Source: Phycisphaera sp. (lineage in GTDB: Bacteria; Planctomycetota; Phycisphaerae; Phycisphaerales; Zrk34). Taken from it: a stretch of 64,000 nt of DNA. The notes beneath the pieces are model-generated. The model saw nothing but the letters and a program-made list of their open reading frames with translations, was not told the DNA's origin and made no database searches. Both the position numbers and the translations under genes were made by a program. How positions within the stretch are numbered: the stretch's first letter is position 1; each line of letters opens with the position of its first letter. Of the stretch, positions 8,158 through 43,199 are shown in pieces. Location: the NCBI GenBank assembly GCA_016125285.1, contig WGMA01000039.1, positions 1-64,000 of the forward strand, read 5' to 3'.

Positions 8158-8942
8158 TGCGTCGCTCCTTCCCGCGGTCCGCTTCGACCGATGTGTACGT
8201 TCACCACGCCCTCGGACTCCTGCGCCACGGAGATCGGCACGCCGTACGCCGATTCGAGCAGGTCGCTCCGCAGCACGTCGCCGACCGGCCCGGCGTGCAC
8301 GGCGCCGTCGAACACCAGCGCCGCGTGCGTCGCGTACCGCGCCGCCAGCTCGACGTTGTGCGACACGAACAGCCACGTCAGGCCCGTCGTGTGGTTCAGG
8401 TCCAGCAGCGAACGCATCAGCGCGTCCTCGGCGGTGAGGTCCAGGCCGCTGGCCGGCTCGTCGAGCAGCAGCACCGCCGGCTCGCGCACCATCGCACGCG
8501 CCAGCAGCGCCCGCTGCCGCTGGCCGCCCGACAGCGACCAGTAATTCGCGTCGATGCGGTCGATCAGATCGACCTGTCGCAACGCCTCGGCGAAGCGCCG
8601 GTCGCGCGCGGCCCGGTCGGCGCGCCGGCCGACCAGCCCGAGCATCACGAACTCGCGCACGGTGGTGGGCAGCGTCGGGTTCAGGTCGCAGCGCTGCGGC
8701 ACGAAGCCGATGCGATCGGGCCGCATGAGCTGCGGGTGTCGCCACAGCTGCGCCGCGGGCGCGGGCAGGAGCCGCAGCACGCCGCGCAGCAGCGTGCTTT
8801 TGCCCTGGCCGTTGGGGCCGACGATGAACCACCGCTGCCCGCGGCGCACCTCCATGTTGACGTCGGCGATAATGGTCCGGCGGCCGTACCCCAGCGACAG
8901 CCCCGTTGCGCGGAGCATCACGTCGTCTTCGACCTCGCTCAT
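8154..8942 (-). CDS. Metal ABC transporter ATP-binding protein
   Basis: A 262-residue cytoplasmic ATPase of the ZnuC type that powers metal import. Walker A is GPNGQGKST, the ABC signature is LSGGQRQRALLARAM, Walker B is VLLLDEPASGLD, and the switch histidine lies in FVSHNVELA. The start at 8942 overlaps the stop of the substrate-binding protein gene in an ATGA arrangement. The frame is open further upstream, but that extension only mirrors the neighbouring gene. Cotranscription with permease and binding protein is almost certain. Confidence 0.92.
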   Translation of the reverse strand: MSEVEDDVMLRATGLSLGYGRRTIIADVNMEVRRGQRWFIVGPNGQGKSTLLRGVLRLLPAPAAQLWRHPQLMRPDRIGFVPQRCDLNPTLPTTVREFVMLGLVGRRADRAARDRRFAEALRQVDLIDRIDANYWSLSGGQRQRALLARAMVREPAVLLLDEPASGLDLTAEDALMRSLLDLNHTTGLTWLFVSHNVELAARYATHAALVFDGAVHAGPVGDVLRSDLLESAYGVPISVAQESEGVVNVHIGRSGPREGATQ

Positions 8943-9988
8943 CGCACGCCTCCCTTCGACAGCGCCGCGGTGATCGCGGTGATGTCGTGATCGAACATCG
9001 ACACGTAGTCGCCCGCCGCGTCGGTCGCGCCGACCTGGTGGGCGAGCGTCACGGCCTTCGCGTCGGTGTGCTCCGCGAGGAAGCGGGCGTGCCGCGTGTC
9101 GAAGTACGGGCTGGAGATGATCAGCTGAACGTGTTGTTGCTTCATCACGCCGACGAGCGCGGCGGTGTGGCTGGTCGTCGGGGCGAGGCCGGGCTTGGGT
9201 TCCATGTAGCCCACGAGGTCGACGCCGAACCGCAGCGCGAAGTAGCGCCACATGTTGTGGTCGCCCACGGCCTTGACGCCCCGGAGCTTCGCCATCGCGC
9301 CCATCCAGCCGCCGAGCAGGTCCGACTGGTTCTGCGACTGAAGGAACACGCCGAGCTTGTCGTGGTCCGCGAGGATCATCAGCTTCTCCACGTCGTACGC
9401 CTTGGCGAGCGGTTCGCCGACGAGCGCCGCGGCGACCTTGTCGTGGAACGCCTTGTAGTTGGCGTCGAAGGTCGCCTTCGCGGCGGGCCGCAGGCGCGTC
9501 AGCCGATCGCGGATGAGCCTGGCGACCTTGATGCCGTTGACCGGGTCGAGCAGGTAGTGCGGGTTACCCATCGGGTGCACGTCACCCTGCGAGCGGTCGA
9601 TCGGTGCGGTCGGCACGTCGATGGGCGTGATGGCGGTCGAGCAGTCGAGGTACCCCGGCCCACCGGTCAGCACCGCGCCGTTCCGGGCGTTCTTCTGCAG
9701 CACCGGCGCCCAGCCCATCTCCAGCTCCATGCCCATCTCCAGGAGCAGGTCGGCGTGGCTGAGCTCCTTGACGAAGCTCGGGCGCGCCTCGACGAAGTGT
9801 GGGTCTTCGGTGCCCTTGCCGAAGCTCGTGACGTCGACCTCGTCTCCGCCCACGGCTTTGACCAGCGAGCCCAGGTCGGGCACGGTGACGCAGACCTTCA
9901 TCGGATCGGCGGCGACACCGCGCGACGACACGGCGAGCAACGCAAGCAGGATCGTCGTTAGTATCGTGATCAGGTTGAATCTTTTCAT
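8939..9988 (-). CDS. Periplasmic zinc/manganese-binding protein (ZnuA-like)
   Basis: A 349-residue substrate-binding protein of cluster A-I. A signal peptide covers about residues 4-27. Likely metal ligands are H64 (EDPHFVEARPSF), H144 (GNPHYLLDP), a third His near 209 or 244, and an acidic residue near 327 (GDYVSMFDHD). It lacks the long His-rich loop of E. coli ZnuA. A strong ribosome binding site AAAGGAG lies 8 bases before the ATG. It heads the three-gene importer unit; the porin-like gene lies upstream on the same strand, separated by a palindromic repeat. Confidence 0.9.
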   Translation of the reverse strand: MKRFNLITILTTILLALLAVSSRGVAADPMKVCVTVPDLGSLVKAVGGDEVDVTSFGKGTEDPHFVEARPSFVKELSHADLLLEMGMELEMGWAPVLQKNARNGAVLTGGPGYLDCSTAITPIDVPTAPIDRSQGDVHPMGNPHYLLDPVNGIKVARLIRDRLTRLRPAAKATFDANYKAFHDKVAAALVGEPLAKAYDVEKLMILADHDKLGVFLQSQNQSDLLGGWMGAMAKLRGVKAVGDHNMWRYFALRFGVDLVGYMEPKPGLAPTTSHTAALVGVMKQQHVQLIISSPYFDTRHARFLAEHTDAKAVTLAHQVGATDAAGDYVSMFDHDITAITAALSKGGVR

Positions 9989-29133: not shown

Positions 29134-31800
29134 ATGGCAAAGACCAAGCGTAGCAGCAGCAAGGCGACCAAGTCGGTTTACTACTTCGGCAAGACCAAGA
29201 CCGACGGCGAGAAGACGATGAAGGAACTGCTCGGCGGCAAGGGCGCGAACCTCGCCGAGATGACCAGCATCGGCCTGCCCGTGCCCGCCGGCTTCACGAT
29301 CACCACCGGCGTGTGCGACCAGTACTACAAGTCCGGCCGCAAGCTCCCCAAGGGCCTGATGGACGAGGTCCACAAGAACGTGGCCATCGTCGAGAAAGAG
29401 ACCGGCAAGAAGTTCGGCGACGACGCCAACCCGCTGCTGTTCTCGGTCCGCTCCGGCGCCGCGGTCTCCATGCCCGGCATGATGAACACGATCCTGAACC
29501 TCGGCCTGAACGACAAGTCGGTGCAGGGCGTGGTCAAGTCGACCGGCAACGAGCGTTTCGCGTGGGACTCCTACCGCCGCCTGATCAACATGTACGGCGA
29601 CGTGGTGATGGAGGTCGACCACCATAACTACGAGGCCGCGTTCGACAAGATCAAGAAGAAGTACAAGGCCGCGCTCGACACGGACGTGCCGACCGCGGGT
29701 CTCAAGGAGCTCGTCGACGCCTACAAGGACGTCTACAAGAAGCACACCGGCACGCCGTTCCCGCAGGACCCGTACAAGCAGCTCGAGCTGGCGATCGAGG
29801 CGGTGTTCAAGAGCTGGATGACGGACAAGGCCGTGTCGTACCGCCGCATCGAAGGCATCCGCGGCCTGCTGGGCACGGCGGTGAACGTGCAGTCGATGGT
29901 GTTCGGCAACATGGGCGACGACTCGGGCACGGGCGTGGCGTTCACACGCAACCCGTCGACCGGCGAGAACAAGTTCTACGGCGAGTTCCTGATCAACGCC
30001 CAGGGCGAGGACGTCGTCGCGGGCATCCGCACGCCGAAGCCCGTCGCCGAGATGGCCAAGTGGAACAACAAGGTTTACAAGCAGCTGCTCGACATCAAGA
30101 AGAAGCTCGAGAAGCACTACCGCGAGGTGCAGGACATCGAGTTCACCATCGAGCGGAACCACCTGTACATGCTGCAGACGCGTACCGGCAAGCGCACGGG
30201 CGCCGCGGCGGTGAAGATCGCCTGCGACATGGTGCGTGAGAAGCTGATCACCGAGAAGGAAGCGATCCTGCGTGTCCCGGCGAACGCGCTGACGCAGCTG
30301 CTGCTGCCGAGCTTCATCCCGGCGGCGAAGGCGAAGTCGACGGTGCTGGCGACGGGTCTGCCGGCGTCGCCCGGCGCGGCGATCGGCAAGCTGGCGTTCA
30401 CCGCCGACGAGGCCGTCGAGCGTGCCCAGGCCGGCGAGCAGGTCCTGCTCGTGCGTAAGGAGACGAGCCCTGAGGACGTCGACGGCATGCACCACGCCGC
30501 GGGCATCCTCACGTCGACCGGCGGCATGACCAGCCACGCGGCGGTCGTGGCCCGCGGGTGGGGCAAGTGCTGCGTGGCCGGCGCCGGCGCGATCAGCATC
30601 GACGAGAAGAAGCGCTGCATCACCGTCGGCGGCAAGAAGTTCACCCACAAGGACACGCTGTCGATCGACGGCACGTCCGGCGAGGTGATGGTCGGCGCGA
30701 TCGACCGTCAGGAGCCCTCGATGTCCGGCGCGTTCGCCCAGCTGATGAAGTGGGCCGACAAGTACCGCAAGCTCGCCGTCCGCACCAACGCCGACGCGCC
30801 GAAGGACGCCCAGCGCGCCCGCGACTTCGGCGCCCAGGGCATCGGCCTGTGCCGCACGGAGCACATGTTCTTCGAGGGCGACCGCATCACCGCGATGCGT
30901 GAGATGATCCTCGCCGACACGCTGCCCGCCCGCGAGAAGGCGCTCAAGAAGCTGCTGCCGTACCAGCGCAAGGATTTCGAAGGCATCTTCAAGGCGATGA
31001 AGGGCCTGCCGGTGACCATCCGCCTGCTGGACCCGCCGCTGCACGAGTTCGTGCCGCACGACGAGGCCGGCCAGAAGGAAGTCGCCAAGGTCATCGGCGT
31101 GCCGGTCGCCAAGGTCAAGCAGCGCGTCGGCCAGCTGCACGAGATGAACCCGATGCTCGGCCACCGCGGCTGCCGCCTGTCGATCACGTACCCCGAGATC
31201 CTCGTGATGCAGGTCACCGCGATCACCGAGGCGGCGATCAACTGCAAGAAGAAGCGCATCGACGCCAAGCCCGAGATCATGATCCCGCTCGTCGGCACGG
31301 CCAAGGAGCTGTCGGTCCTGCGTGACCTGACCGCCGAGACGATCAAGAACGTCAAGGCCGCGAAGAAGTTCAAGGCCAGCCTCGACATCTCGATCGGCAC
31401 GATGATCGAGATCCCGCGTGCCGCGCTGACCGCCGACGAGGTCGCCGAGCACGCCGACTTCTTCAGCTTCGGCACCAACGACCTGACGCAGATGACGTTC
31501 GGCTACAGCCGCGACGACGTCAACACGTTCCTGCCCGACTACCTCGCGCAGGACATCCTGCACGTCGACCCGTTCCAGTCGCTGGACCAGACGGGCGTCG
31601 GCCAGCTCGTGGACATGGGCGTCAGGAAGGGCCGCTCGAAGAAGTCGAAGCTGAAGGTCGGCATCTGCGGCGAGCACGGCGGCGACCCGTCGTCTATCGA
31701 CTTCTGCCACCGCGTCGGGCTGGACTACGTGTCCTGCTCGCCGTTCCGCGTGCCGATCGCACGCCTCGCCGCCGCTCAGGCCGCGCTGAAGAACGGCTGA
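29134..31800 (+). CDS. ppdK: Pyruvate, phosphate dikinase
   Basis: An 888-residue cytoplasmic enzyme interconverting pyruvate, ATP and Pi with PEP, AMP and PPi. The order is normal: the N-terminal ATP-grasp domain (LLGGKGANLAEMTSIGLPVP, then FSVRSGAAVSMPGMMNT), the central phosphohistidine domain with catalytic H468 in TGGMTSHAAVVARGWG, and the C-terminal PEP/pyruvate barrel ending with C845 in GICGEHGGD. A Lys/Ser-rich N-terminal tail of about 15 residues precedes the domain. A ribosome binding site AAGAAGG lies 10 bases before the ATG. Its terminator has been used as the integration site of the island that follows. Confidence 0.95.
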   Translation: MAKTKRSSSKATKSVYYFGKTKTDGEKTMKELLGGKGANLAEMTSIGLPVPAGFTITTGVCDQYYKSGRKLPKGLMDEVHKNVAIVEKETGKKFGDDANPLLFSVRSGAAVSMPGMMNTILNLGLNDKSVQGVVKSTGNERFAWDSYRRLINMYGDVVMEVDHHNYEAAFDKIKKKYKAALDTDVPTAGLKELVDAYKDVYKKHTGTPFPQDPYKQLELAIEAVFKSWMTDKAVSYRRIEGIRGLLGTAVNVQSMVFGNMGDDSGTGVAFTRNPSTGENKFYGEFLINAQGEDVVAGIRTPKPVAEMAKWNNKVYKQLLDIKKKLEKHYREVQDIEFTIERNHLYMLQTRTGKRTGAAAVKIACDMVREKLITEKEAILRVPANALTQLLLPSFIPAAKAKSTVLATGLPASPGAAIGKLAFTADEAVERAQAGEQVLLVRKETSPEDVDGMHHAAGILTSTGGMTSHAAVVARGWGKCCVAGAGAISIDEKKRCITVGGKKFTHKDTLSIDGTSGEVMVGAIDRQEPSMSGAFAQLMKWADKYRKLAVRTNADAPKDAQRARDFGAQGIGLCRTEHMFFEGDRITAMREMILADTLPAREKALKKLLPYQRKDFEGIFKAMKGLPVTIRLLDPPLHEFVPHDEAGQKEVAKVIGVPVAKVKQRVGQLHEMNPMLGHRGCRLSITYPEILVMQVTAITEAAINCKKKRIDAKPEIMIPLVGTAKELSVLRDLTAETIKNVKAAKKFKASLDISIGTMIEIPRAALTADEVAEHADFFSFGTNDLTQMTFGYSRDDVNTFLPDYLAQDILHVDPFQSLDQTGVGQLVDMGVRKGRSKKSKLKVGICGEHGGDPSSIDFCHRVGLDYVSCSPFRVPIARLAAAQAALKNG

Positions 31801-31831
31801 TCCGCCGCGACGATCACACGATCCCCACAAG

Positions 31832-31857
31832 CCCCGGTCGTAAGGCCGGGGTTTTTT
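31832..31857 (+). terminator. Intrinsic terminator of ppdK
   Basis: Stem CCCCGG (31832-31837) with CCGGGG (31846-31851) followed by six T. The 3' half of the hairpin and the T-run coincide with the island attachment core. Confidence 0.8.
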
Positions 31858-31861
31858 GTGC
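31845..31861. other. attL of the genomic island
   Basis: GCCGGGGTTTTTTGTGC here recurs as GCCGGGGCTTTTTTGTGC at 42435-42452, one base longer. The two copies bracket the integrase, regulators and low-GC cargo, so they are read as the left and right attachment sites. Confidence 0.65.
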
Positions 31862-32557
31862 CCACCTCAAGCAGATCCAGAAGCTGTTGGTCCCACTCAT
31901 CTTTCGATAGATTCTCGATTGTTGACTCGGCGTTTGCCCTCAAGTCGCCCTCATCGACCTCCGCGGGCGCCGTGTCCTCGTCCACGGGGAGCTTGGCGAA
32001 TTCTTCCGCATCGTCGTCCGATCCGGTGTCCTGAGCCAACGCCATCATCGCCGCCTGACTCTCGGCGTCGTGCAGGTGGTAGTAGATGTCGAGCATCTCC
32101 GACGAACTGTGCCCCAGCCAGGTCAGGGCCTTCTTGTAGGCGATGTTGTGATTGGCGCAGAGGCTGGCGAAGTGGTGGCGGAACGAGTGCAGCTTGAACC
32201 GGCGAGGCTTGGGGAACTTGAGTTCTACGCACAGGTCCTTGAGCTTGTTGAGCTGCTTGCGATTGACGCCGGGGAACACGAGTTCGTCCTTCTTCGGCAA
32301 CCCATCGAGCAGCTTGCGAACCTTGGGGTGGATCGGCACGAACCGCTCGCCCTTGAGCAGTTCGTTGTAGATCGTCACGGCCTTGCGGCGGGCTTCGAGG
32401 CGGCTGCGGGTCTTGAGGGACTCGCACTTCTGCTTGCCGTCGAGGTCGCGATACTCGGCCGAATACGAGCGACTGACGACCTGTTTACCGTCACGGTACT
32501 GCACACGGTGGCCGATGGTCACCGTGGAGCCATCGACACGTTCTCGATCGATGAGTT

Positions 32558-32773
32558 TCATCGCATGAACTCCTGAATTAGACGGTCGCGCCAGAACCGA
32601 AGCGGCTTGCCACGCTTCACCGATCCGCCGTAGCGTCCTTCGGATACGTGACGGTAGAGCGTCGAGACCTTTAGGCGGAGCAGATCGGCCGCTTCCTCGG
32701 GCGTGAGGATGGGCGGCAGATCGCACGACTGCATCGCGGCGCTGACCTCGGTGGTGGTGAGTTTTCGGTCCAT
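32558..32773 (-). CDS. Excisionase-like HTH protein (AlpA/MerR-type)
   Basis: A 71-residue protein with a single helix-turn-helix of the HTH_17 type: LTPEEAADLLRLKVSTLYRHVSEGRYGGSV is the visible DNA-binding unit, followed by a wing KRGKPLRFWRDRLIQEF. Such proteins act as excisionases or as activators of int in integrated elements. Its stop overlaps the integrase start by four bases (ATGA), as expected for a xis-int pair. It follows the zinc-ribbon gene on the same strand. Confidence 0.8.
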   Translation of the reverse strand: MDRKLTTTEVSAAMQSCDLPPILTPEEAADLLRLKVSTLYRHVSEGRYGGSVKRGKPLRFWRDRLIQEFMR

Positions 32774-32818
32774 GGATCATATCCGCCGGGTGAGGGGAGG
32801 GAAGGCGAGGGCAGAGAT

Positions 32819-33043
32819 TCAATCTCCACATGACAGACATCGTTTCGCGCCACAGCGTGGGCAGAACTCGTGCTCGGCCGTGGATGCCCCGCATCGAACG
32901 CAGAACAACAGCGACGTGCCGCCACGGAAGTCTGGGCCGACCTGCGGCGGTGGCGGAGCATCGGGGTCATCGGCCTGGTTGTACTGGTAGACGATTTCAG
33001 GCGGGCAGTCGCGGTCATGATCGTGGTAGTAGGGTTCGTTCAC
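32819..33043 (-). CDS. Small zinc-ribbon protein of the island
   Basis: A 74-residue protein. The first 45 residues are acidic and proline-rich; the C-terminus carries a two-knuckle ribbon FCVRCGAS...FCPRCGAKRCLSCGD with six cysteines. Function is unknown. The GTG start at 33043 is preceded 6 bases upstream by AAAGGAG, a far better site than the TTG six codons earlier. An XRE-type operator lies 31 bases upstream, so the operon with the xis-like and int genes is probably under the island repressor. Confidence 0.65.
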   Translation of the reverse strand: MNEPYYHDHDRDCPPEIVYQYNQADDPDAPPPPQVGPDFRGGTSLLFCVRCGASTAEHEFCPRCGAKRCLSCGD

Positions 33044-33073
33044 GGGGGTCTCCTTTCTCAAAGCTGTTCGGTT

Positions 33074-33091
33074 GTTCGCTATCTTGCTAAC
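33074..33091. promoter_or_regulatory. Operator copy upstream of the zinc-ribbon/xis/int operon
   Basis: On the minus strand GTTAGCAAGATAGCGAAC, a GTTAGC-N6-GCNAAC palindrome with one mismatch. It matches the operator in front of the XRE gene at 34258. Confidence 0.55.
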
Positions 33092-33114
33092 AGTGATCCC
33101 AAATAAAAAGCCGC

Positions 33115-33867
33115 TCAGCGGATAGGCCGACCCCGGATCAGGCGCGGCACACCCTGTTCGACACGCACATCGTTGATCAGGCTCTTGTCACCGGCGGGAC
33201 GTAGCAACTGATCGTGCAACGAGGCGTTGAGGATCGGCTTGCCGTCGATGCTCAGTTCCAGGAACCGGAACAGGGCCGTGGAGAGCGATACCCCAAATCG
33301 GTAGGTCATCGCGGGAAGGAACCGCTTCTTCCACAACCACACCGACTCGGCCTTGCTGAGCAGCAGTTGTGTGAAGGTCTCCTGACGGTCGAGCTTGTAG
33401 TGATCGCACACGGCAAGCATCTCGCGGACCACCAGCGGCAACGGCATCAGGAACGCTGCGGCGAATCGGTTGGCCTGCCGCTCGTATCGATCGTGGCTGG
33501 CCAGCCCCGTCGCGTCGGTCTCGGTAAACTTTTCGGCAACGTCGGCATGAAGGATCATGTGACCCAGTTCGTGGGCACAGGTGAAGCGGAAGCGTCCCTC
33601 GTGAGCCAGCGTCTTGTCGCTGACAACGATTTCTTCTTCACGAACAAAGGCCGCGCCGAGCACGCCTTCACCAAGTGGGGACAGATCCTCGATGGCGAAG
33701 CCATAGCCCAGCGGGTGCTCGATCCATTGATCGACCGGGATGGGCAGCGGGTAATCTTCGAGGCCGAGTTGTGTGCGGCACTGGTACAGGCACTGCACCG
33801 CGGCCCGCTCCACTGTGCGGACCTCTTCGTTGGGCTCCAGCAATGTCTGCTCGAAGCGTGCGTACAC
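33115..33867 (-). CDS. ImmA/IrrE-family metallopeptidase
   Basis: A 250-residue zinc peptidase of the DUF955 group. The catalytic motif is CAHELGHMILH (HELGH), followed by the conserved RQANRFAAAFLMPLPLV stretch. Such proteins cleave the partner XRE repressor when the element is induced, as ImmA does to ImmR. It is coupled to the XRE gene just upstream (TTGA overlap, then GTG at 33867 with AGAAAGG 6 bases ahead). The C-terminal 80 residues are specific to this protein and may sense the inducing signal. Confidence 0.85.
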   Translation of the reverse strand: MYARFEQTLLEPNEEVRTVERAAVQCLYQCRTQLGLEDYPLPIPVDQWIEHPLGYGFAIEDLSPLGEGVLGAAFVREEEIVVSDKTLAHEGRFRFTCAHELGHMILHADVAEKFTETDATGLASHDRYERQANRFAAAFLMPLPLVVREMLAVCDHYKLDRQETFTQLLLSKAESVWLWKKRFLPAMTYRFGVSLSTALFRFLELSIDGKPILNASLHDQLLRPAGDKSLINDVRVEQGVPRLIRGRPIR

Positions 33868-33869
33868 GA

Positions 33870-34253
33870 TCAACCTTTCTTCTTGCCGCCCATACGGCCA
33901 GCTTCCTTGATGAGTTTATCCCACTGTTCCGGGGTCAGGTCACGGGCGGTTCGCAGGAACTGAGGCACCTTGCGGGCGGTGGTGGCGTCCTGACTGGCCA
34001 CTTCGTCGACGATCGCCTCGGGGCGCTTCCACCCGGCGCGTAATTCGGCCTCGTCCATCTTGTAGTGCTGAACGATCCGCAGCAACAGTTCCTCGGAGGG
34101 CGTGCGGCGGTCTTTTTCGATATCGGTCAGGTGTGGCGCGGCGATACCAAGGATCTGAGCCATCTGGCGCAGGCCCTTGTTCAGCACCTCGACCCGCTGC
34201 TTGCGGAGCAGTTCACCGGCGGTCGAATTGGAGTTGCTGCGCGTCATGGGCAT
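33870..34253 (-). CDS. XRE-family regulator, partner of the ImmA-like peptidase
   Basis: A 127-residue repressor-type protein. The helix-turn-helix lies at about 25-58 (GLRQMAQILGIAAPHLTDIE, then KDRRTPSEELLLRI). The C-terminal half is polar and ends in a basic tail GGKKKG. It sits with an ImmA-type peptidase in one operon; a perfect GTTAGC-N6-GCTAAC palindrome lies 4 bases before the start codon, which suggests self-repression, and a second copy controls the integrase operon. The second ATG (34247) is an alternative start. Confidence 0.85.
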   Translation of the reverse strand: MPMTRSNSNSTAGELLRKQRVEVLNKGLRQMAQILGIAAPHLTDIEKDRRTPSEELLLRIVQHYKMDEAELRAGWKRPEAIVDEVASQDATTARKVPQFLRTARDLTPEQWDKLIKEAGRMGGKKKG

Positions 34254-34257
34254 GGCC

Positions 34258-34275
34258 GTTAGCTATTATGCTAAC
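34258..34275. promoter_or_regulatory. Operator and promoter of the XRE/ImmA operon
   Basis: Perfect palindrome GTTAGCTATTATGCTAAC. On the minus strand its centre contains CATAAT, a -10-like box, so binding of the XRE protein would cover the promoter. Confidence 0.65.
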
Positions 34276-34784
34276 ATCCGCCTCCGCCGAGTCAAGAATC
34301 GGGAGAAAAAATCCCTAAATCGAGAGGCGTATAATGGAACCGAACCGGCCAACCTGTGGTTGGCTACCACGAGCATCAACCGAAGTTGCTGCATCATATT
34401 GATGGCGATACGGAGAACGCAGAATCCCTGGCCGACAGTCTTGTCCGGGCAGCCGACTGATGGCCTGTCAATGAAACCGGCCTTTCACGTGGGGCATTGG
34501 CGCTAACCGACAGATTTCGGCTCGTTCGATTCGTAATAGCTTGGGCGACCTTGGTCAAGATCGTACAATCATTAGCAGATGTCCGGGGACTTAGCCGAGT
34601 GACGGTCATGTGGAAAACGACAACCTAAAGTACGACTTCCCACGTATCTATTGGCAGCACAGCGAATCCCGAATACTCGGCATCGATAAACGGGCGACTA
34701 TCATGGAACGAAAGTCGACATCCCGGCACTTATTGGACAGATGGAAACGGTACCGGTTCAAGTCCTCAACGGAGACAAGGCAGC
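34276..34784. other. Gap between the XRE gene and hamA
   Basis: Base composition here is lower in GC than the chromosome. A TATAAT is seen at 34330-34335 and a possible 60-codon frame runs 34610-34792 into hamA, with no recognisable product. No other gene can be supported. Confidence 0.4.
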
Positions 34785-35768
34785 ATGAGTGATGGGAAGG
34801 GAACGGCACCGACTAAGACACCGCCACCCGGCCTGTCCTTCGACGCGTTTGCGCGCCTCCTTCGCGCACAACCTGACTCTCTCGATGCATTCTTTGGAGA
34901 GATCGGGGCACGCTCCACCTTGCCCTCTACCCAGGCAACAGTCCATTGCCACTACCTGAAGATTGATGGGAATAGGGCTCCACGCGTCGGCGCACTTGCT
35001 GAGCGACTAGCTCGCGAATTGGTGAATTATTCGATCCCGCGATCCGACATTGAGGCGGCAAAAGCCGCTGACGCCGGACAGGACACGAAGCACGCCGTTG
35101 CCCTATACCGGAAGGCCAACCGGCTATTTACGGACTTGGGCAAGACCGGCGAAGGCGGAGAACTCCTTCTCTACCTAATGGCAGAAACATACCTGCAACT
35201 TCCCCAATTGTTCTGCAAAATGCCGCTCAAGACCAGCTCCCAGATGCATGTTCACGGCGCGGACGGCATACATGGCACCTACGATCCCGGGACCGACACT
35301 TTAGCGGTCTATTGGGGGGAGTCTAAGCTCTACGCGACCGCGTCGTCCGCGATCGATGCGTGCTTCGAGAGTTTGGCCCCTTTTGTACTTCCCGATGGAA
35401 GTTCGACGGCGCCACAGTCGCGTGATCTTCAACTACTTTCAGACAATCTTGATTTGGCAAGTCCAGACCTGGAAGCCGCCATTCTTCGGTATCTCGATCC
35501 GGATGACCCCAAATTCAACCAATTGAATTACCGCGGGGTAGCTCTCGTCGGATTCGACGCCGCGTCGTATTCCCCAGGTTCATCGCCATTGACAGAGGCC
35601 GACATTACTGCCGCGCTCGAAAAGTCTGTGAAATCATGGCACGGCTCTGCTTCGCACTATATCAAGAAGAATCAGCTCACTGAAATCACGATAGAGCTGT
35701 TTTGTGTCCCCTTTCCATCGGTTGATGCTTTTCGCGAAGCTTTCCTAGCAGAACTGGGGATTAAATGA
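34785..35768 (+). CDS. hamA: Hachiman-like HamA nuclease (DUF1837)
   Basis: A 327-residue protein of the DUF1837 type, the effector of Hachiman anti-phage systems. The conserved centre reads TGEGGELLLYLMAETYLQLP (about 121-140), then MPLKTSSQMHVHGADGIHG and YWGESKLYATAS. D160, E179 and K181 give the D...E-x-K pattern of a PD-(D/E)XK nuclease. In known systems HamA is held silent by the HamB helicase and degrades DNA once phage DNA is sensed. Its TGA overlaps the hamB ATG. GC content is clearly lower than that of the chromosome, in keeping with recent transfer. The frame looks complete. Confidence 0.8.
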   Translation: MSDGKGTAPTKTPPPGLSFDAFARLLRAQPDSLDAFFGEIGARSTLPSTQATVHCHYLKIDGNRAPRVGALAERLARELVNYSIPRSDIEAAKAADAGQDTKHAVALYRKANRLFTDLGKTGEGGELLLYLMAETYLQLPQLFCKMPLKTSSQMHVHGADGIHGTYDPGTDTLAVYWGESKLYATASSAIDACFESLAPFVLPDGSSTAPQSRDLQLLSDNLDLASPDLEAAILRYLDPDDPKFNQLNYRGVALVGFDAASYSPGSSPLTEADITAALEKSVKSWHGSASHYIKKNQLTEITIELFCVPFPSVDAFREAFLAELGIK

Positions 35769-36713
35769 GCATCGATACTTTGGCGCAGAATCTGCTGGAG
35801 TGCTCTGGATTTCGTTCGAGGCTGAATGACGTTGTAGCTGATTCCGTCGCGTCGCAGTTTGCGGCACTCAAACGGGCGGAGGGTCTGCACGATCTCTCAC
35901 ATGATTGGAACTATCTACTTCAATGTGCCAGTTTGCTGGCGCAGGCGAGAACGGCTAGTTGCGAAGATGCCGCCTTGCGCATCGCTCAACATTGCCTGGT
36001 TCAATCCACACACGGTAGTCTCGCCGATGCGGCGTGCGTCATTTTTGATACGCTCACGAACAAGCCTTCGATTCGTCTGGCAGAGAATCGGAAGCTCGTT
36101 GAGCCAGACCCTTCATCACGCCTGCCATTGCCGTTGCGTGCAGCATGGCTGCGCCGTGAAATGTCCCACCTTGTCGTGGTTGGTGATGGGCACGAACTGT
36201 CCTTGAATCGATTTCAGCGGGACGTCTGGCACGCGACGAACACAACGCAGGTGCTGAGCATAACTGCTCCAACATCTACCGGTAAGTCATTTTTGCTATG
36301 CCAGTGGCTCGCAGAGTATTTTCGCGATAACCCAATGGCTTTCGTCGTATACGTAGTGCCAACTCGTGCCCTGATTCAGCAAGTTGAAAGCGACTTGCGG
36401 AAGGAGTTCGCAGATAGCCAAAGTGTTCTTCCGGTTATCAATGTCTCAAGCCTTCCAATGTCTTCGTCAGTCAAGGCTGACACCTCCAATGTAATGGTGC
36501 TAACCCAAGAGAGACTCCACATACTGTTGCTTGCATTGCCGCCAGATCGTCGTCCTGCCCTGATGATCGTTGATGAGGCCCATAAGTTTGGCGATGGCGC
36601 ACGAGGCATTTTGCTCAATGGAGTTATTGACGCCCTTTCTGCTGAGTCCAAGGAACTGAAGATTCTTTTCGCCAGCCCCTTAGTTTCTAACCCAGAGGTG
36701 CTGCTGAGAGGGC
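35765..36713 (+). pseudogene. hamB: Hachiman-like HamB helicase, truncated after the first RecA domain
   Basis: About 316 residues of a superfamily 2 helicase remain. Walker A is APTSTGKS (168-175), motif Ia VPTRALIQQVE, Walker B IVDEAHKFGDGARG with DEAH at 270-273, and motif III region FASPLVSNPEVLL (about 302-314). Beyond that point the frame stays open to 37357, but the added 215 residues are antisense to a tyrosine recombinase and are not helicase. Full-length HamB would carry the second RecA domain and a C-terminal region, here absent, so the ATPase cannot be active. The ATG overlaps the hamA stop (ATGA), as in a two-gene defence operon. Confidence 0.75.
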
Positions 36714-36732
36714 GACACGCATCCGGTGGCGT

Positions 36733-37342
36733 TCTCCCGCGACTTGCCGCCCTTGTCGTCGAAATGCAGGCACCATTGTTCGCCGATGTCGTACAGGTCT
36801 TTGCGGCGCAGCTTCGCCACGGCGCCGATGCGTGCGGCGGTGTAGATCAGCGTGGCGATGATCGCTCGGTCGCGCCGTCCCGTGACGGTCGAGATGTCGA
36901 TCGAATCAATCAGCAATCGTGCTTGTGGCACGGCGATCTCGGGTGTTTTTCCTTCGACGACGCTCAGACGCTCGCCACGTACGGACAGCGCCGGATTCAG
37001 CACCACAACGTGCCGTGTGACCGCCACGTCGAAGAACAGCCGTATCGCGGCAAGATGCTGCTTGCGGGTCGCGATGCAGCCGGAGTGCTGATCGAGGTAT
37101 TCGCGGATGTGACGCGGCGAGATGCGCCGAAGATCGAGGCCGAGTTTATGACACCAGCGAAGCAATCTGCCAACGGCGTGAAGATAAGCCCGCCGTGTGT
37201 GTTCGTTGGAAACCGTCCCGTAGATGAATTCTTCCCACGCAAACCTCGCGTGGTCGCCACCGGCTTCGATCATCGCCGGAATCTTGTCGTTGTTCTCAAT
37301 TACGTGATGCTGCTTGGCAGCAATGATGTCCCGGTCGCCCAT
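36733..37342 (-). pseudogene. Tyrosine recombinase, C-terminally truncated
   Basis: The first about 203 residues of an XerC/D-like recombinase. The N-terminal SAM-like domain spans about 28-115 (SNEHTRRAYLHAVGRLLRWC). The catalytic domain starts with Arg I at R171 (IYTAARIGAVAKLRRKD) and reaches the lysine region DDKGGKSRE (about 195-203). Then homology stops at the junction with hamB, so the H-x-x-R, His and Tyr parts are lost. The start ATG 37342 is 39 bases from a dif-shaped palindrome that may be its own target site. It probably came with the event that cut hamB. Confidence 0.75.
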
Positions 37343-37381
37343 ATCTCCCCGTGGTAATTCCCGACCCCATGGGTCGGTTAC

Positions 37382-37415
37382 TTAGTGCATGATAAAGGAC
37401 GTTATCATGCACTAA
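37382..37415. repeat. dif-shaped palindrome upstream of the truncated recombinase
   Basis: Perfect 14-base inverted arms TTAGTGCATGATAA (37382-37395) and TTATCATGCACTAA (37402-37415) around a 6-base spacer AGGACG. The inner ends ATAA and TTAT and the 6-base centre match the shape of XerCD dif sites. It may be the crossover site of the adjacent recombinase, or an operator. Confidence 0.6.
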
Positions 37416-37919
37416 TGACGAAGGGCAAGAGTATTTGATTCATGATAGGAATCTCAGATTGCTCCCCCCATTCCTGACTCTGGCAATCGGTCAGGCGTAG
37501 GCGGGTGGTCGTGGTCATGTTGTGATGGCTTGGATTTGTCTGATTATCGCCCGGTTGACCGACGTGGGCGCGGGGAATGCATTTACGCCTCGCTTGGCAG
37601 TGGCGTCAGCGGCATCCGAGCAGACTCAGACTCCTCTTGATGTTGTAGGACGCGGGGTTGACGGCGAAGCCGATCGCTTGTTCCAGCCTCCTGAAGATTC
37701 CATCAGTAGGATGCGCGCCATCGTGCTGCCAAATCATCCGAAAAATGTGGCAAATTTCGCGTTAGCGACCAACCCAGAATCCGCAAACAGTTCCATATGC
37801 GCCACTTACGATAAACAGCGTTCACTTGTTGACTACAATTGCCTAATTTCCTCATTCCCGGTACATTACGTATTCGTTTTGTAGGGGGAATTGAAACGGG
37901 GACTGGGGGATTTGCCGGG
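37416..37919. other. Gap without a supportable gene
   Basis: About 500 bases of mixed composition between the palindrome and the secreted protein gene. A 120-codon open frame (37522-37884) exists but shows no family features. The region is probably a scar of earlier recombination. Confidence 0.4.
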
Positions 37920-40121
37920 ATGTCAGCGTCAAGTTTTTCCAAATTCAGCCGCCTCTATGCCGTGGTCGCCATGTGCATCCTTATATATGCGCAGCCCGCC
38001 AGCGCCGCCGGTCAGGCCGATGAACTGTTCAACTCCCTCTACGGCGACTCCTACAAATCCGCCGCAGCCTCATCTTCCCCAAATGACGATGTAACGCTCG
38101 CCGCCCAACTGCTCGAAGCCGCTACAACCTCGGCTTCCGAACACCCCGACCTGCTCAAACTGCTCTGCGAGAAGGCGGTTGAGCTCGGCAAGAAAGACCC
38201 CAGCGGCTACGCCAGCGCGATCAGCGCTTTGAATCTGCTCATCGAGAAGTTCCCCAACGACTCATTCAAGTACAAGCCGCAGGTTGTTGAGTTATACCAG
38301 GCGTGGTTCATCCGATCGCGCGGCGATGAGAAGAAGCTGGTTGGGCAAGCCCTGCTGCAACAACTCATCACGCAGGCCAACAACGAGCGCGAGAAGAAGC
38401 TGTTCGATGAAGCGGATAAAACCTACCGCCGCAGTCTGGCGGTCGCCAGCGCCGTAGACAACGATGCCCGCAAGTCCGTCATGGATGCGCTCCAATCTCT
38501 GCGCGAAGAAAGAGACATCTACGACAGCATCGACAAGGCGAAGGCGGTTCTGCAACTCAATCCCGATGACGCCGCCTCGAAGAAGGCGCTCCTTCAGGCA
38601 TATCTTGTGGATCTGGACGACCCGACAGAAGCGGCGAAGTACGCCGACGCCGACCCCAAAGCCAAAGCCATGTTGCCGCTGATGACCGGCGACGTTGAAG
38701 TGCTGTCTCCGCTGGCGTGGTTGGACCTGGCGGACTGGCAATCGGAACTTGCGGGTACAACGAAGAGCGACATTTCCAAGGCAAAATTGCTTAGTCACTC
38801 CCTGAGCAACTATCAGAAGTTCCTTGCCGAACATCAGGACAAAGACCTGTCGAGGACCAAGGCGGAACTGGCCAGCCAGAAGATTGAAGGCTCGCTGAAA
38901 GCGATGGGCTATCCATCGACCGGTGTGACGTTGACTTCATCGAGTTCAGCAGCAAGCAGCCCGCTGACGAATTCGTTTACGACGACAACCCCGCCCGACG
39001 CTACGGCTCATCTACTGAAGCCGACCGGTGCATCCGGCGCAATCGATTTGCTGTCCATGTTGGATCCCGATGCTCACGCCAAAAGCGGCAAGTGGTGGCG
39101 CGACGGCGGCGGTATCAGCGGTCGCGGCAAGGACAACCGAAGCAGCAACATCCATTCTCAGATTGAAGTTCCAGTCGCCATGACGGGGGACTATGCCATC
39201 GACCTGACCTTTGCACGGAAGGATGGCGAGCAAGGCATGGGCATCCAACTGCCGGTTGGCGACACTGCCGTCTGGCTCATCGTCGGGGGTAACAGAGGGA
39301 GCGGCAGCGCCCTGACCCAAATCGACGGATTAAACAGTGGGGCATCCGGCAACCCCACCCGCAAGGATATCGCCCCCCTCCATGACGGGCAGGAACGTAA
39401 GGTTCACGCTGCGGTGAAGGTTCGCGGCGCAAACGCGGAAATCGTCGCGACGCTTGATAGTCAGACAATCGTGGAATGGCGAGGTCGCATATCTTCCCTG
39501 ACGGTGGATGGCTCAACGATTCGAAACGGGGCGCTCGGACTACTTTCGCTTGACAACACCACGATTGCGTTCAGCAACCTGACCGTCACGGCGCTGTCCG
39601 GCAGCGTGAAATCGCTGAACGGGTCCGGCGCTGCCAACGCGGTTGCGACCAACACACCAAAGGATATTCGGACGATTCCATCGTCGCGCCCACTAACGGT
39701 TCCACCCGCGATTGCATCCGGAAAATCCATCGACCTGTTGAAAGCGGTGGATTTATCCAACGCGGTAGGCGGCAAGTGGGTCATGCAGGGCAATACGCTC
39801 GCGAGCATGGACGATAAGCAGTTCTCACGTTTTTCGTTCCCTGTCCACCCAGAGGGCGACTACGAGTTGAACATCGAGATGGAACGAGCCGAGGGCAACG
39901 ACGCGGCGACAATCATGCTTCCGGTCGCAGACAAGCAACTTGCCATCAGCCTTGGATGGAAGAAGGGCGGCAGAAACAGCCTTGAGTATGTCGGTGGTCC
40001 AAGGAGGACCTTGTTCTCTCAGCAGCAGAACGTAATTCAAACCGGTAAACGACACGCTGTGGTTATACGAGTCATCGAGCGCAACGGTCACTCACTCCGC
40101 GATCACGCGCCGATATGGTAA
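37920..40121 (+). CDS. Exported protein with two LamG-like repeats, second one truncated
   Basis: A 733-residue secreted protein of a type common in Planctomycetota. A signal peptide spans about residues 12-35 (LYAVVAMCILIYAQPASA). Residues 40-340 are helical, with tetratricopeptide-like spacing (NLLIEKFPNDSFKYKPQVVE, AVLQLNPDDAASKKALLQAY). Two beta-sandwich repeats follow: about 385-560 (IHSQIEVPVAMTGDYAIDLTF, GIQLPVGDTAVWLIVGG) and about 620-733 (FPVHPEGDYELNIEMERAEG). The second repeat ends early in IERNGHSLRDHAPIW, which does not match the first, so its 3' end was probably replaced. Possible role: binding of polysaccharide or surface scaffolding. Confidence 0.6.
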   Translation: MSASSFSKFSRLYAVVAMCILIYAQPASAAGQADELFNSLYGDSYKSAAASSSPNDDVTLAAQLLEAATTSASEHPDLLKLLCEKAVELGKKDPSGYASAISALNLLIEKFPNDSFKYKPQVVELYQAWFIRSRGDEKKLVGQALLQQLITQANNEREKKLFDEADKTYRRSLAVASAVDNDARKSVMDALQSLREERDIYDSIDKAKAVLQLNPDDAASKKALLQAYLVDLDDPTEAAKYADADPKAKAMLPLMTGDVEVLSPLAWLDLADWQSELAGTTKSDISKAKLLSHSLSNYQKFLAEHQDKDLSRTKAELASQKIEGSLKAMGYPSTGVTLTSSSSAASSPLTNSFTTTTPPDATAHLLKPTGASGAIDLLSMLDPDAHAKSGKWWRDGGGISGRGKDNRSSNIHSQIEVPVAMTGDYAIDLTFARKDGEQGMGIQLPVGDTAVWLIVGGNRGSGSALTQIDGLNSGASGNPTRKDIAPLHDGQERKVHAAVKVRGANAEIVATLDSQTIVEWRGRISSLTVDGSTIRNGALGLLSLDNTTIAFSNLTVTALSGSVKSLNGSGAANAVATNTPKDIRTIPSSRPLTVPPAIASGKSIDLLKAVDLSNAVGGKWVMQGNTLASMDDKQFSRFSFPVHPEGDYELNIEMERAEGNDAATIMLPVADKQLAISLGWKKGGRNSLEYVGGPRRTLFSQQQNVIQTGKRHAVVIRVIERNGHSLRDHAPIW

Positions 40122-40210
40122 TCCATGCCAGTCTTTGGCATCATATTCGCGCATAGCTTGGTGCGTGGATGCAATACAGGATGCAAGTTCAAGACAAAGG
40201 TGCAATCCTT

Positions 40211-41230
40211 ATGACTAGAATCAACAACTTCAGCACTCGTGTAGCGGTCTGCCTCTCTTTTCTGTTTGCAAGCTGTGTTTGCGCCGCCGATATACCGCCG
40301 TATTTCGGACAGGCACAGGAGCTGTTGCAGATTCCAAACAAAGAGTCCAATGAATTCCTAGATGTATTGAAGAAAACGTTGAGTCATTTTAACCCAGACG
40401 CAACGGAGCAGACTAAGGATTTTGAAGCGAGTGCTAACAGGCTGGTTGACCTGATCGTTGCCGGTGTGCCTCGGCATGCTATGATCAATGTAATTCTACC
40501 TCGTGTGCATATAAACGGGTCGGGTGCTTTTCCGGATATCACTCTTGAAACGGACGAATGGAAATACCCATTAAGGTCGATCGTGCATTTGGGCCGTGAG
40601 TTGTACGTGCGGGGTTCACAGATGCGGAAGACGAATCCTCGCCGCGGTGCTCAGTTTGCACGAGCCGGGATGTTTATCCAGCTACAGGACGGGTTTATGG
40701 GCTGGTTTCGTCCGGCGTTGGTTTCAAAGCATTCCCCTATTGAGTATCGGCGAGAAGTCTTTGTCGATTCACTTGAGCTGGCGGATGATGCCTCAACCAA
40801 GTTACAGGCGTTGCTGACTGAATATCACAACGGATATCTCAAGTATCGGCACTCTGAGGACTATGAGGCAATGCTTAGAGCCATGCAGCGCATGATTGAT
40901 GCTATGACCGCTGATGATCAACTTGCAGCGGGCAAAGTAATGATTGCTCGGTCGAAAAGTTTGTGGAATACTATTCCAAGTGATCAGCTATACGCGAAGT
41001 GGGCACATCTAAACTACATGTGGCAGGCCCTTAATCTTGCTCGTCTTGAGAAGAATGATGATGTCAGGAAGCTCATTGAACTGGAATTGCAAGGGTGGAG
41101 GCAGGTATCGAAAAGTGAGGTTGTTCAGCGGTGGATATCGGAATCTCTTGATCGTGAGGGTCATGCTCCGTCGCGAGTTTGGTCTGAACCGGACTCGCCA
41201 CCCCTTAAAGATACGAAGATCAAGGAATGA
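40211..41230 (+). CDS. Uncharacterised exported protein
   Basis: A 339-residue protein with a signal peptide (RVAVCLSFLFASCVCAADIP, about residues 10-30) and a mostly helical remainder; no family is recognised. GC content is markedly low against the chromosome. Its TGA overlaps the start of the MauE-like gene (ATGA) with AAGGA just ahead, so the two form a unit. The ATG at 40211 is chosen for the signal peptide; in-frame ATGs at 40169 and 40181 are alternatives. Partial processing of a secreted partner by a redox membrane protein is a guess only. Confidence 0.55.
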   Translation: MTRINNFSTRVAVCLSFLFASCVCAADIPPYFGQAQELLQIPNKESNEFLDVLKKTLSHFNPDATEQTKDFEASANRLVDLIVAGVPRHAMINVILPRVHINGSGAFPDITLETDEWKYPLRSIVHLGRELYVRGSQMRKTNPRRGAQFARAGMFIQLQDGFMGWFRPALVSKHSPIEYRREVFVDSLELADDASTKLQALLTEYHNGYLKYRHSEDYEAMLRAMQRMIDAMTADDQLAAGKVMIARSKSLWNTIPSDQLYAKWAHLNYMWQALNLARLEKNDDVRKLIELELQGWRQVSKSEVVQRWISESLDREGHAPSRVWSEPDSPPLKDTKIKE

Positions 41231-41661
41231 TTGCCTCGCGTCTCTCAGTGATATTGCGATTGTCTATAGCGGCGGTCTTTCTGCTGGCTGGCGCTAGTAA
41301 ACTTGTTGGCCATGAGGGACCCACGACGCTCTATGATGAAGTGACCCTGCATAGTACTATTCTTCACCTGAGCGTAATAGCGATGGAAATAGGTTTGGCT
41401 TTTTGGCTAGCGTCCGGCTGGAAGCGACATATATCAGTTTCACTTGCAGGAGCATTGTTAGCCTGTATGTCAGCAGTTGTTGCGGCAAGCCTGTTGAAGG
41501 AGCATCCCGCCGCGTGCGGCTGTTTTGGCGCGGCAACGTCGACCGATCCGTTTGCGAGCAATCTTGGTGCTTTAGCCCGTAACTTCTTGTTGATATCCAT
41601 CTGTGGTTATTTATTCATCACCGATCCTGTTGAAACAGTAGTTAAGGCTGGTAGCATGTGA
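41227..41661 (+). CDS. MauE/DoxX-like four-helix membrane protein
   Basis: A 144-residue inner-membrane protein with four hydrophobic helices (about 8-26, 45-65, 73-92, 110-130). The start RLSIAAVFLLAGASKLVGH and the pair of cysteines in HPAACGCFGA are typical of the MauE group, which is thought to support disulfide formation or electron transfer for exported proteins. Coupled by a four-base overlap to the exported protein upstream. Low GC indicates import with the island. Confidence 0.7.
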   Translation: MIASRLSVILRLSIAAVFLLAGASKLVGHEGPTTLYDEVTLHSTILHLSVIAMEIGLAFWLASGWKRHISVSLAGALLACMSAVVAASLLKEHPAACGCFGAATSTDPFASNLGALARNFLLISICGYLFITDPVETVVKAGSM

Positions 41662-41713
41662 GATTCAACAGCACACTGATCGCGATACTGGCTGTCCAAG
41701 ATTTGGGGACCAC

Positions 41714-41900
41714 CTCTCTCACGCCGCCTGCCAAACACCTCTGGCAACGACTCGATCAGCGGCTTCTTCCACTGGCTGATCTGGTTCGGATGCACCTCGT
41801 GCTCACCGGCCAGCTCCGCCACCGTCTTGTGACCCTTGATCGCTTCCAACGCGACCTTCGCCTTGAATTCCGCCGAAAATCTACGTCGCTTCCTCGACAT
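41714..41900 (-). pseudogene. IS3-family transposase OrfA fragment
   Basis: The first 62 residues of an IS3-type OrfA with the HTH: RRRFSAEFKAKVALEAIKGH, then TVAELAGEHEVHPNQISQWK. Homology stops at about 41714, and OrfB is absent. A ribosome binding site AAGGAG precedes the ATG at 41900. The sequence TGTGTAATACTCCCC (minus strand, about 41953-41967) may be the element's outer end. The fragment is inactive. Confidence 0.75.
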
Positions 41901-42026
41901 CGGACTCGTCTCCTTCCTTGGACGAATCCACCTTAATCACGCGCACAGGTTTTGGGGAGTATTACACATTGTGAACGATCACCTACCTTGCTTGTTGCGC
42001 CTATCCCAGCAGATCGACGAGCATTT

Positions 42027-42254
42027 TCATGGCGTCGATTGGATCAACGTCACAGGCGGTGGCCCGGCGTGATGTACAGCGTCTTGACGCCCAACCTCGT
42101 TGGCGCGGCGGCGTACGGCTTCGCTGGCAGGACGGTTGCCATTCTCCAGATCGGCAAGGGATCGTTCGGATACGGCCAGAATGCGTGAGAAGGTTTTCCG
42201 CGGTACACCAAGTCGCTTACGCACTTCGCCTACGGATAACGCACGGTCAGTCAA
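42027..42254 (-). CDS. Small HTH protein, possibly an antitoxin remnant
   Basis: A 75-residue frame whose first 52 residues look like an XRE-type helix-turn-helix (VRKRLGVPRKTFSRILAVSE, then RSLADLENGNRPASEAVRRR). The rest shows no family features and another frame just downstream resembles a protein C-terminus (DPIDAMKMLVDLLG), so the gene may be frameshifted. Regulators of this type often act as antitoxins; no toxin is seen beside it. Confidence 0.4.
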   Translation of the reverse strand: MTDRALSVGEVRKRLGVPRKTFSRILAVSERSLADLENGNRPASEAVRRRANEVGRQDAVHHAGPPPVTLIQSTP

Positions 42255-42434
42255 TTTTGATCCACAGCTGTCCGGATCAGTGTGCCCTCAAACTTGCCCT
42301 TACTCACCATCGCGAGACAGTAAAAAACCGTGCAGGGACAGGACATCAACGAGACGCGCTAATTCACGCTCGTTGCTGCCCTTGGTATGCAAATACAGGT
42401 CGTGTAGCACCTTGGCTGTTTGGCCCGTAGAAAA

Positions 42435-42452
42435 GCCGGGGCTTTTTTGTGC
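42435..42452. other. attR of the genomic island
   Basis: GCCGGGGCTTTTTTGTGC, near-identical to attL at 31845. Joined to the left half of the ppdK hairpin it would restore a perfect seven-base stem GCCCCGG/CCGGGGC, which suggests this copy keeps the original chromosomal side. Confidence 0.65.
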
Positions 42453-42491
42453 GCGTGCGTGTGAGCGGCTGGACGGTGGTCGACCGCGGGC

Positions 42492-43199
42492 TCAACCGTC
42501 GGTCAGCATCAGGTCGTGACCGCTGACGATCTGGACCCACCAGAGCCCCACGTGGTCGGCGATGTCGAACAGGCCGAAGCTCGTGTAGCTGAACACCGCG
42601 ATGATCGCGATGAGGGCGAACATGAAGATCTGCGGGTCGTGGACGGCCCGGATCTTGTGCGCGTAGGCGGGGCTGAAGTTCGCCAGGATGCGCGAGCCGT
42701 CCAGCGGCGGGATCGGCAGCAGGTTCAGGACGACCAGCACGCAGTTGAGGCGCCCGAGGTGCCACAGCAGCAGCTGTGAGTTGGCGGCGAGGGGCGTCAT
42801 CAGCTCGGTGTCGGGCAGCCCCGCGAAGCGCACCCACAGGCCGTACCCCGTCAGCGCGACCAGCGCGATAAGGAACGTCATCGCCGGCCCGGCCGCGGCG
42901 ACCAGCGCGTCGCCGTACTTGCTGCGGAACCGCGTGGGATCGACGGGCATCGCGCCCCACGCGATGCCGCACGTCAGCAGCAGGATGATCGACACCGGCC
43001 CCATGTGCACGATCGGGTTGGCGGTCATGTGCCCGGTGAGGATCGGCGTGCGGTCGCCCTGCCAGATCGCCGCCCACCCGTGCGCCAGCTCGTGCAGCAC
43101 GATGCTGAACGTCACGCCGACCACCACGCCCAGCCAGATGCCCGGCTTGTCGTTGAGCAGCTCGAGGAACGCTGCGAGTTGAAGCGGCGCGGTAAGCAT
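42492..43199 (-). CDS. Site-2 protease family (M50) membrane peptidase
   Basis: A 235-residue intramembrane metalloprotease. The zinc motif is VLHELAHGWAA (H36, E37, H40) in the first helix, and the third ligand lies in NLLPIPPLDGSRI near residue 155. Five or six membrane helices are visible. Short members without PDZ or CBS domains have unknown substrates; regulated cleavage of membrane anti-sigma factors is the family theme. I chose ATG 43199 as TACAAT lies 9 bases ahead and conservation starts there. It is the first chromosomal gene to the right of the island. Confidence 0.82.
   Translation of the reverse strand: MLTAPLQLAAFLELLNDKPGIWLGVVVGVTFSIVLHELAHGWAAIWQGDRTPILTGHMTANPIVHMGPVSIILLLTCGIAWGAMPVDPTRFRSKYGDALVAAAGPAMTFLIALVALTGYGLWVRFAGLPDTELMTPLAANSQLLLWHLGRLNCVLVVLNLLPIPPLDGSRILANFSPAYAHKIRAVHDPQIFMFALIAIIAVFSYTSFGLFDIADHVGLWWVQIVSGHDLMLTDG

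Follow-up and report, generated by a model that had tools for sequence, protein, structure and literature searches.

Sequence comparisons strongly support a single XRE repressor with two matching operators in the 64,000-nucleotide stretch of DNA analysed here (hereafter, the window), one operator (O1) lying at the repressor's own promoter and the other (O2) before the xis and int genes. In related loci, a T-tract commonly ends at a fixed short distance before O2. From this arrangement, we lean towards a reading in which XRE bound at O2 would stop RNA polymerase on the T-tract, so that one promoter, at O1, would read through into the excision or lytic genes after removal of XRE.

Along the minus strand, the module runs from the promoter and O1 through XRE, ImmA, the T-tract and O2 to the genes for a zinc-ribbon protein (ZnR), an Xis-like protein and an integrase (Table 1). 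The XRE protein exceeds the Pfam cut-offs for both HTH_31 and HTH_3, and its sequence profile matches the structures of DdrO and ImmR; a structure model of the protein itself is of low confidence (mean pLDDT 64.6, pTM 0.47). The gene beside it encodes a HExxH metallopeptidase. By sequence, O1 lies over the TTGACT-16-TAGCAT promoter, and this layout is kept in relatives.

Table 1. Features of the XRE–ImmA module in the window, in their order along the minus strand
Feature	Coordinates	Strand	Evidence and remarks
sigma-70-type promoter TTGACT-16-TAGCAT	34268..34295	minus	9/12; TG before -10; -10 inside O1 left arm
O1 operator TGTTAGCATAATAGCTAACG	34257..34276	minus	overlaps -10 of XRE-ImmA promoter; core 18-mer 34258-34275
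XRE repressor, 127 aa	33870..34253	minus	Pfam HTH_31 5e-8; profile of 18 relatives matches DdrO structures, 6rnz 2.7e-9
ImmA-type metallopeptidase, HELGH, 252 aa	33115..33873	minus	Pfam Peptidase_M78 1.5e-14; PADLOC capP 2.7e-21; PDB CapP 7t5t 1.1e-9
T-tract TTTTTATTT	33101..33109	minus	last T 8 nt before O2; end of immA; preceded by short stem 33111-33121
O2 operator TGTTAGCAAGATAGCGAACA	33073..33092	minus	core 18-mer 33074-33091
third half-site CCGAACA	33065..33071	minus	one base past O2 right arm; direct repeat, 8 bp step
zinc-ribbon protein (ZnR)	32819..33043	minus	likely GTG start; mechanical ORF from 33061; Pfam Zn_ribbon_3 7.8e-4, below cut-off
Xis-like HTH_17 protein	32558..32773	minus	Pfam HTH_17 3.5e-7
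tyrosine integrase, 261 residues, probably internally deleted	31776..32561	minus	Pfam Phage_integrase 4.7e-8; comparison with relatives

Scanning the window for the pattern GTTAGC-N6-GCTAAC recovers the O1 core, GTTAGCTATTATGCTAAC, with no mismatch and the O2 core, GTTCGCTATCTTGCTAAC, with one. Both operators lie just upstream of genes and within 1.2 kb: 4 bp separate O1 from the XRE ATG, and O2 is placed between the ImmA stop codon and the zinc-ribbon gene, 29 nt from the likely GTG start of the latter. The two sites present in the 64 kb at up to two mismatches are an unremarkable count (shuffled sequences gave a mean of 0.97, and 27 in 100 of them reached two or more), which is the one point in favour of the two palindromes being alike by chance. 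Against it, O1 and O2 are the sole sites at up to one mismatch in the whole genome (6,085,941 bases), where the reversed pattern, taken as a control, occurs 13 times per strand. A sequence-only reading of this DNA had marked the XRE/ImmA promoter as carrying a palindrome that recurs, with one mismatch, ahead of the zinc-ribbon, xis and int genes; both sites are where it put them, and nothing else in the 6.09 Mb comes within one mismatch. It had also seen no copy before hamA, and our window scan agrees, with no operator site at up to two mismatches in the hamA upstream region; hamA was rejected as an XRE target on this ground. The single mismatch separating O2 from O1, which the same reading had noted, stands as an observation and not as a sign of decay. 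The arm scored as mismatched belongs to GTTCGC/GCGAAC, the usual right arm in relatives, so by this comparison O2 is no decayed copy of O1. A third half-site, repeated directly at an 8 bp step after the right arm of O1 or O2, was noted by eye at the window O2 and in L009, L010, L012, L031, L032, L044 and L051, and suggests that more than one XRE dimer may be able to bind.

XRE relatives occur in 18 of 400 genomes sampled from the window's order, the window's own included, and 18 loci of that order, the window's own excluded, were examined for operators. Most of these loci repeat the succession of XRE and ImmA, then a ZnR, Xis-like or second recombinase gene, and then an integrase (ZnR-like genes are present in L033, L039 and L043). 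Both operators reach at least 12/14 in 13 of the 18; at that cut L029 and L042 have a single site, and L030, L041 and L043 have no pair. At a laxer cut of 11/14, 49–72 matches arose by chance when the full 294,864 bases scanned were shuffled. The usual arms in the window's order are TGTTAGC/GCGAACA for O1 and TGTTCGC with GCGAACA or a variant for O2. Gene order is altered in L035–L038, yet O2 still stands before the integrase genes; in L035–L037, ImmA precedes XRE and O2 comes directly after XRE. Beside the L033 module, and in the opposite direction, is a gene for a DUF6036/AbiEii-like nucleotidyltransferase (8124-9179), a possible cargo.

More distant relatives were found in viral contigs, Bacillota genomes, gut phages and, under the name of a phage, a Corynebacterium plasmid record; further scans of viral contigs gave few or no additional loci, and the contexts of five distant relatives (L090–L094) are outside all counts. 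Downstream of O2 in one gut phage, the annotation lists an exonuclease, a single-strand annealing protein and a DNA polymerase. A sigma-factor-like protein follows O2 in the phages of L044 (6742-7242; PHROGs 5.7e-4) and L088 (4944-5723; PHROGs 4.1e-7). Operator sequences vary among elements and include TGTTAGC, TGTAAGC, TGTTCGC, TGTACGC, TGTCAAC, TGTTCAG and others. A search blind to motif compared the 250 bases upstream of XRE with the 160 bases around the end of ImmA (or the end of XRE, if ImmA lies elsewhere) and took the best inverted repeat common to both. In 19 of 30 loci the best common pair exceeded every one of 60 shuffles, with the near-copies L035/L037 and L049/L050 among the 19.

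Across 27 loci outside the window's order, O1 and O2 covary: the mean score is 18.39 within a locus versus 15.43 between loci, a difference reached in 0 of 20,000 permutations that leave the kinship of the loci uncorrected. A locus's own downstream region is the best or tied-best partner in 15 of these 27. Within the window's order alone the covariation is not significant (1,644 of 20,000 permutations, 12 loci), because those loci share one motif. Moreover, two phage genomes recorded as complete have exactly two sites each at up to one mismatch, namely O1 and O2. The proposal that one XRE has two matching operators is thereby borne out at the level of sequence, with a pair that is conserved, covaries within elements and is the sole pair in two phage genomes. 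Chance likeness of the palindromes, to which we assign next to no probability, is rejected by the whole-genome rarity, the dyad search and the covariation, together with the two sites per phage genome; the in-window count alone would be insufficient.

The second feature of the module is the T-tract, defined here as a stretch in which five or more of six bases are T and counted only at loci with a recognisable O2; these loci are akin, and P values are uncorrected for kinship. In the first set, a T-tract ends 6–10 nt before O2 in 18 of 28 loci, and exactly 8 nt before it in 15, versus 1 of 28 before O1 and 1.15% of random positions. An independent set of 24 loci (L087–L089 and L095–L115) was drawn from 394 genomes of a Bacillota genome's order, one further locus and two plasmid-collection records. 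Fifteen of these have a recognisable ImmA (there is no recognisable ImmA ORF in L087, L095, L097–L099, L104, L111, L113 and L114), and 11 of the 15 have a significant pair, the threshold being at most 1 of 60 shuffles (L112, L115, L088 and L110 have none). Among the 11, the T-tract ends 7–8 nt before O2 in nine, the corresponding rates being 1.0% for random positions and 2.0% for slid operators; over all 15 ImmA-bearing loci, it stands at 7–8 nt in 11. By eye, L088 does have a pair, with TGTTAGCTTAGTTGCTAACA upstream of XRE and, 8 nt past a T-tract, TGTAAGCAACTTAGCTAACT downstream of ImmA; the automatic search missed this pair, which lies outside the nine of 11. With near-copies removed from both sets, a T-tract ends 6–10 nt before O2 in 25 of 35 loci, mostly at exactly 8 nt. 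The remaining ten, without a T-tract at that distance, include L035 and L038, where O2 directly follows XRE. Outside the T-tract counts are L011, L048, L053, L057, L058 and L060–L063 (no ImmA found, no pair, or near copies), and L086 was left out as a second copy of the L012 locus.

The intervening bases and the operators differ among loci that share the T-tract spacing. Outside the window's order the eight bases from T-tract to O2 often resemble, by eye, rCCCATAG. The constant spacing bears on the possibility that XRE joins O1 and O2 in a DNA loop that reinforces repression at O1, the proximity of the T-tract being incidental. Two strong sites in one module at a distance of about 0.5–1.7 kb across loci would suit such a loop, and the extra half-sites could support higher-order binding; a loop predicts neither a T-tract 7–8 nt before O2 nor the persistence of O2 before the integrase genes when gene order changes (L035–L038), and we consider it improbable. 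A role for O2 as RNA, in which its inverted repeat would form a hairpin after the T-tract and affect termination or translation of the next gene, seems more improbable still. Any read-through transcript would include O2, which in most loci listed is found a short way ahead of the next start codon, but the same sequence lies over the promoter at O1, and covariation across elements fits a common DNA-binding protein.

Compared with shuffles, the fold before the T-tract has a mean z of -2.55 outside the window's order (n = 22), as in an intrinsic terminator, versus -0.36 within that order (n = 13) and +0.32 in the window, whose stem at 33111-33121 is no stronger than shuffled sequence. As the fold signal appears only outside the window's order, the common element is, judged by sequence, the T-tract plus the operator, with a full terminator in part of the loci only; in the window's order, a pause on the T-tract together with a roadblock would take the place of a classic terminator. 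The ImmA stop codon TGA lies near the loop of the 33111-33121 stem, and translation to the stop could open it.

The main competitor to a stop site at O2 is a separate promoter for ZnR, xis and int that O2 would overlap and that XRE would repress by ordinary occlusion. This fits the position of O2, which in 26 of the 31 loci listed (34 given) is followed after 4–30 nt by a mechanical start codon, as an operator-promoter site might be, and it has a precedent in ICEBs1, where ImmR is reported to repress a separate promoter, Pxis (PMC11658703). The promoter scores point the other way. In the interval from -50 to +16, the best sigma-70 score in the first set is 9.89 at O1 (n = 27) and 6.83 at O2 (n = 28), against 6.49 for random windows; in the independent set (n = 11) the values are 9.36, 7.47 and, for background, 6.98. 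This interval is blind to promoters with a -35 inside O2, and a wider scan from -50 to +60, with a bonus for an extended -10 (TG), gave 10.25 at O1, 7.59 at O2 and 7.06 for background in the first set, where O2 rises slightly over background; in the independent set it does not (9.60, 7.71 and 7.62, in the same order). At the window O2, neither scan finds an overlapping or adjoining promoter (best score 7/12). Individual loci depart from this: L051 and L052 (two of 28) have a 10/12 promoter match with the -35 in O2, and in L102 of the independent set O2 outscores O1.

The O2 sequence itself also argues against a separate promoter. In the window's order its left arm is mostly TGTTCGC, which loses the -10 A kept in TGTTAGCAT of O1, and the T-tract fills the space that a -35 would need for a -10 in that arm. 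The window copy may nonetheless have a weak promoter at O2, because the sequence of O2 there, TGTTAGCAA, resembles an extended -10, though a poor one. In seven of 14 loci scanned outside the window's order (L049/L050 among them being near-copies), no strong promoter match other than that at O1 lies between 600 bases upstream of XRE and the end of the stretch. L009 has one additional strong match, inside ImmA; in four others (L051, L052, L059 and L046) strong matches also occur beyond the O2 start, L056 has strong matches at -352 and +1212, and L047 has no strong match at all by that criterion. Unlike O1, the O2 regions thus appear mostly to be without an ordinary promoter, L051 and L052 being exceptions, and the role of O2 is probably other than that of an operator at a separate promoter, a reading we hold to be rather unlikely. 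Apart from the same two exceptions, O2 is by sequence a repressor site away from promoters and in the path of transcription. The circuit first proposed for this DNA, with XRE at its own promoter and at a second operator before xis and int, is therefore kept in its layout; its treatment of O2 as the operator of a separate excision promoter fares poorly, with promoter scores there near background.

The reading we favour, the repressor-gated stop, would work as follows. XRE would act as the immunity repressor in a small integrated element, binding both operators. At O1 it would close its own promoter, which would also drive immA. At O2, 8 bp past the T-tract, it would halt those polymerases that had escaped O1 while their active site was on the T-tract, where the weak RNA–DNA hybrid would lead polymerase to stop or fall off, and the leak of repressor transcription would be kept from the ZnR, xis and int genes. 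Removal of XRE by ImmA would open the promoter and lift the block at the T-tract together, and the O1 promoter would then read through into the excision genes or, in the phage relatives, the early lytic genes. We infer that XRE binds, that polymerase is roadblocked or terminated, that transcription reads through and that ImmA cleaves XRE. Cleavage is proposed by analogy with ImmA, IrrE and CapP, each reported to cleave its repressor (PMC11658703, PMC10233336).

More tentatively, at close to even chances in our estimate, the module represents a widespread one-promoter lysogeny switch, in which a protease-removable repressor would at once shut the sole promoter and clamp a stop site on a T-tract, a fixed 8 bp upstream of O2, the same promoter serving the repressor when quiet and the excision or lytic genes after induction. 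Such a switch would be common to the integrated elements of the window's order, to gut (Bacillota) phages and to a Corynebacterium phage. If true, this would explain how lytic or excision genes are silenced without a second promoter where all module genes run one way, and it would provide a simple bacterial case of a repressor that governs termination and not initiation, at a stop site switchable by proteolysis. The O1/O2 pair and the T-tract rule would also give a sequence handle for the operators of unstudied XRE–ImmA phages. In an open-access literature search covering titles and the openings of abstracts, we found no paper describing the twin-operator and T-tract arrangement.

Several known systems share parts of this arrangement. 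ImmR–ImmA of ICEBs1, DdrO–IrrE and CapH–CapP likewise combine an XRE repressor, an M78 metallopeptidase, a site at the repressor's own promoter and mobile-element genes, and the window proteins match the DdrO, ImmR and CapP structures by sequence. ICEBs1 differs in the separate xis promoter that ImmR is described as repressing (PMC11658703), whereas in the modules described here the genes for repressor, protease and excision or lytic functions all point the same way, with O2 after a T-tract and, in most loci, no detectable promoter there. The repressor of the cluster A mycobacteriophage L5 has been proposed to halt elongation at stoperators, described as asymmetric, orientation-dependent 13-mers numbering more than twenty per genome (PMC9283540). 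As in that proposal, a repressor would sit both at promoter sites and in the path of elongating polymerase, and in its sequence setting O2 is stoperator-like. By the same account L5 differs from the sites described here, which are palindromic, number exactly two per element at up to one mismatch in the three genomes counted (the window genome and two phages) and include one tied to a T-tract.

Termination by RNA polymerase I is reported to combine an RNA hairpin with a roadblock protein that lies 15 bp past a T-rich stretch (PMC12366685). The likeness to this Reb1/Nsi1 arrangement lies in a DNA-bound protein shortly past a T-rich stretch, here predicted from the 6–10 nt spacing in 25 of 35 loci and 8 nt in the window, and, in many versions outside the window's order, in a predicted hairpin. 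The window module differs in being bacterial, in having a protease-removable repressor that would make the stop switchable, and in that a hairpin is not evident in the window's order. In bacteria, bound PurR, GalR, CcpA, CodY and other proteins are reported to block elongating RNA polymerase (PMC10310618); the part of that source dealing with these roadblocks describes no conserved T-tract spacing and no twin-operator immunity module.

The catalytic part of the window integrase starts at about residue 70, versus 255–293 in five of six relatives and 78 in the sixth, so compared with those five the protein seems to be without some 185–220 residues before the catalytic part and is probably internally deleted. 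The element carried in the window is probably immobile, and because of the missing integrase residues, 'excision' is doubtful as an output for this copy. We found nothing convincing as a direct repeat marking the element's ends in 31,500-42,500, nor did the window yield a tRNA or tmRNA. Beside the module, hamA spans the whole of its profile, and the match of hamB (35765-37357) to its profile covers only the first ~315 of ~865 positions; within the hamB stretch, on the other strand, is an N-terminal integrase fragment (36680-37342). Because of the partial hamB and this fragment, the neighbouring Hachiman system looks broken. Given the loss in the integrase and the truncated hamB match, the regulatory part of the module may outlast the element's mobility. 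An inverted match of 20 nt, at 90%, joins the integrase coding region (31913-31932) and the -35 region of the XRE promoter (34285-34304).
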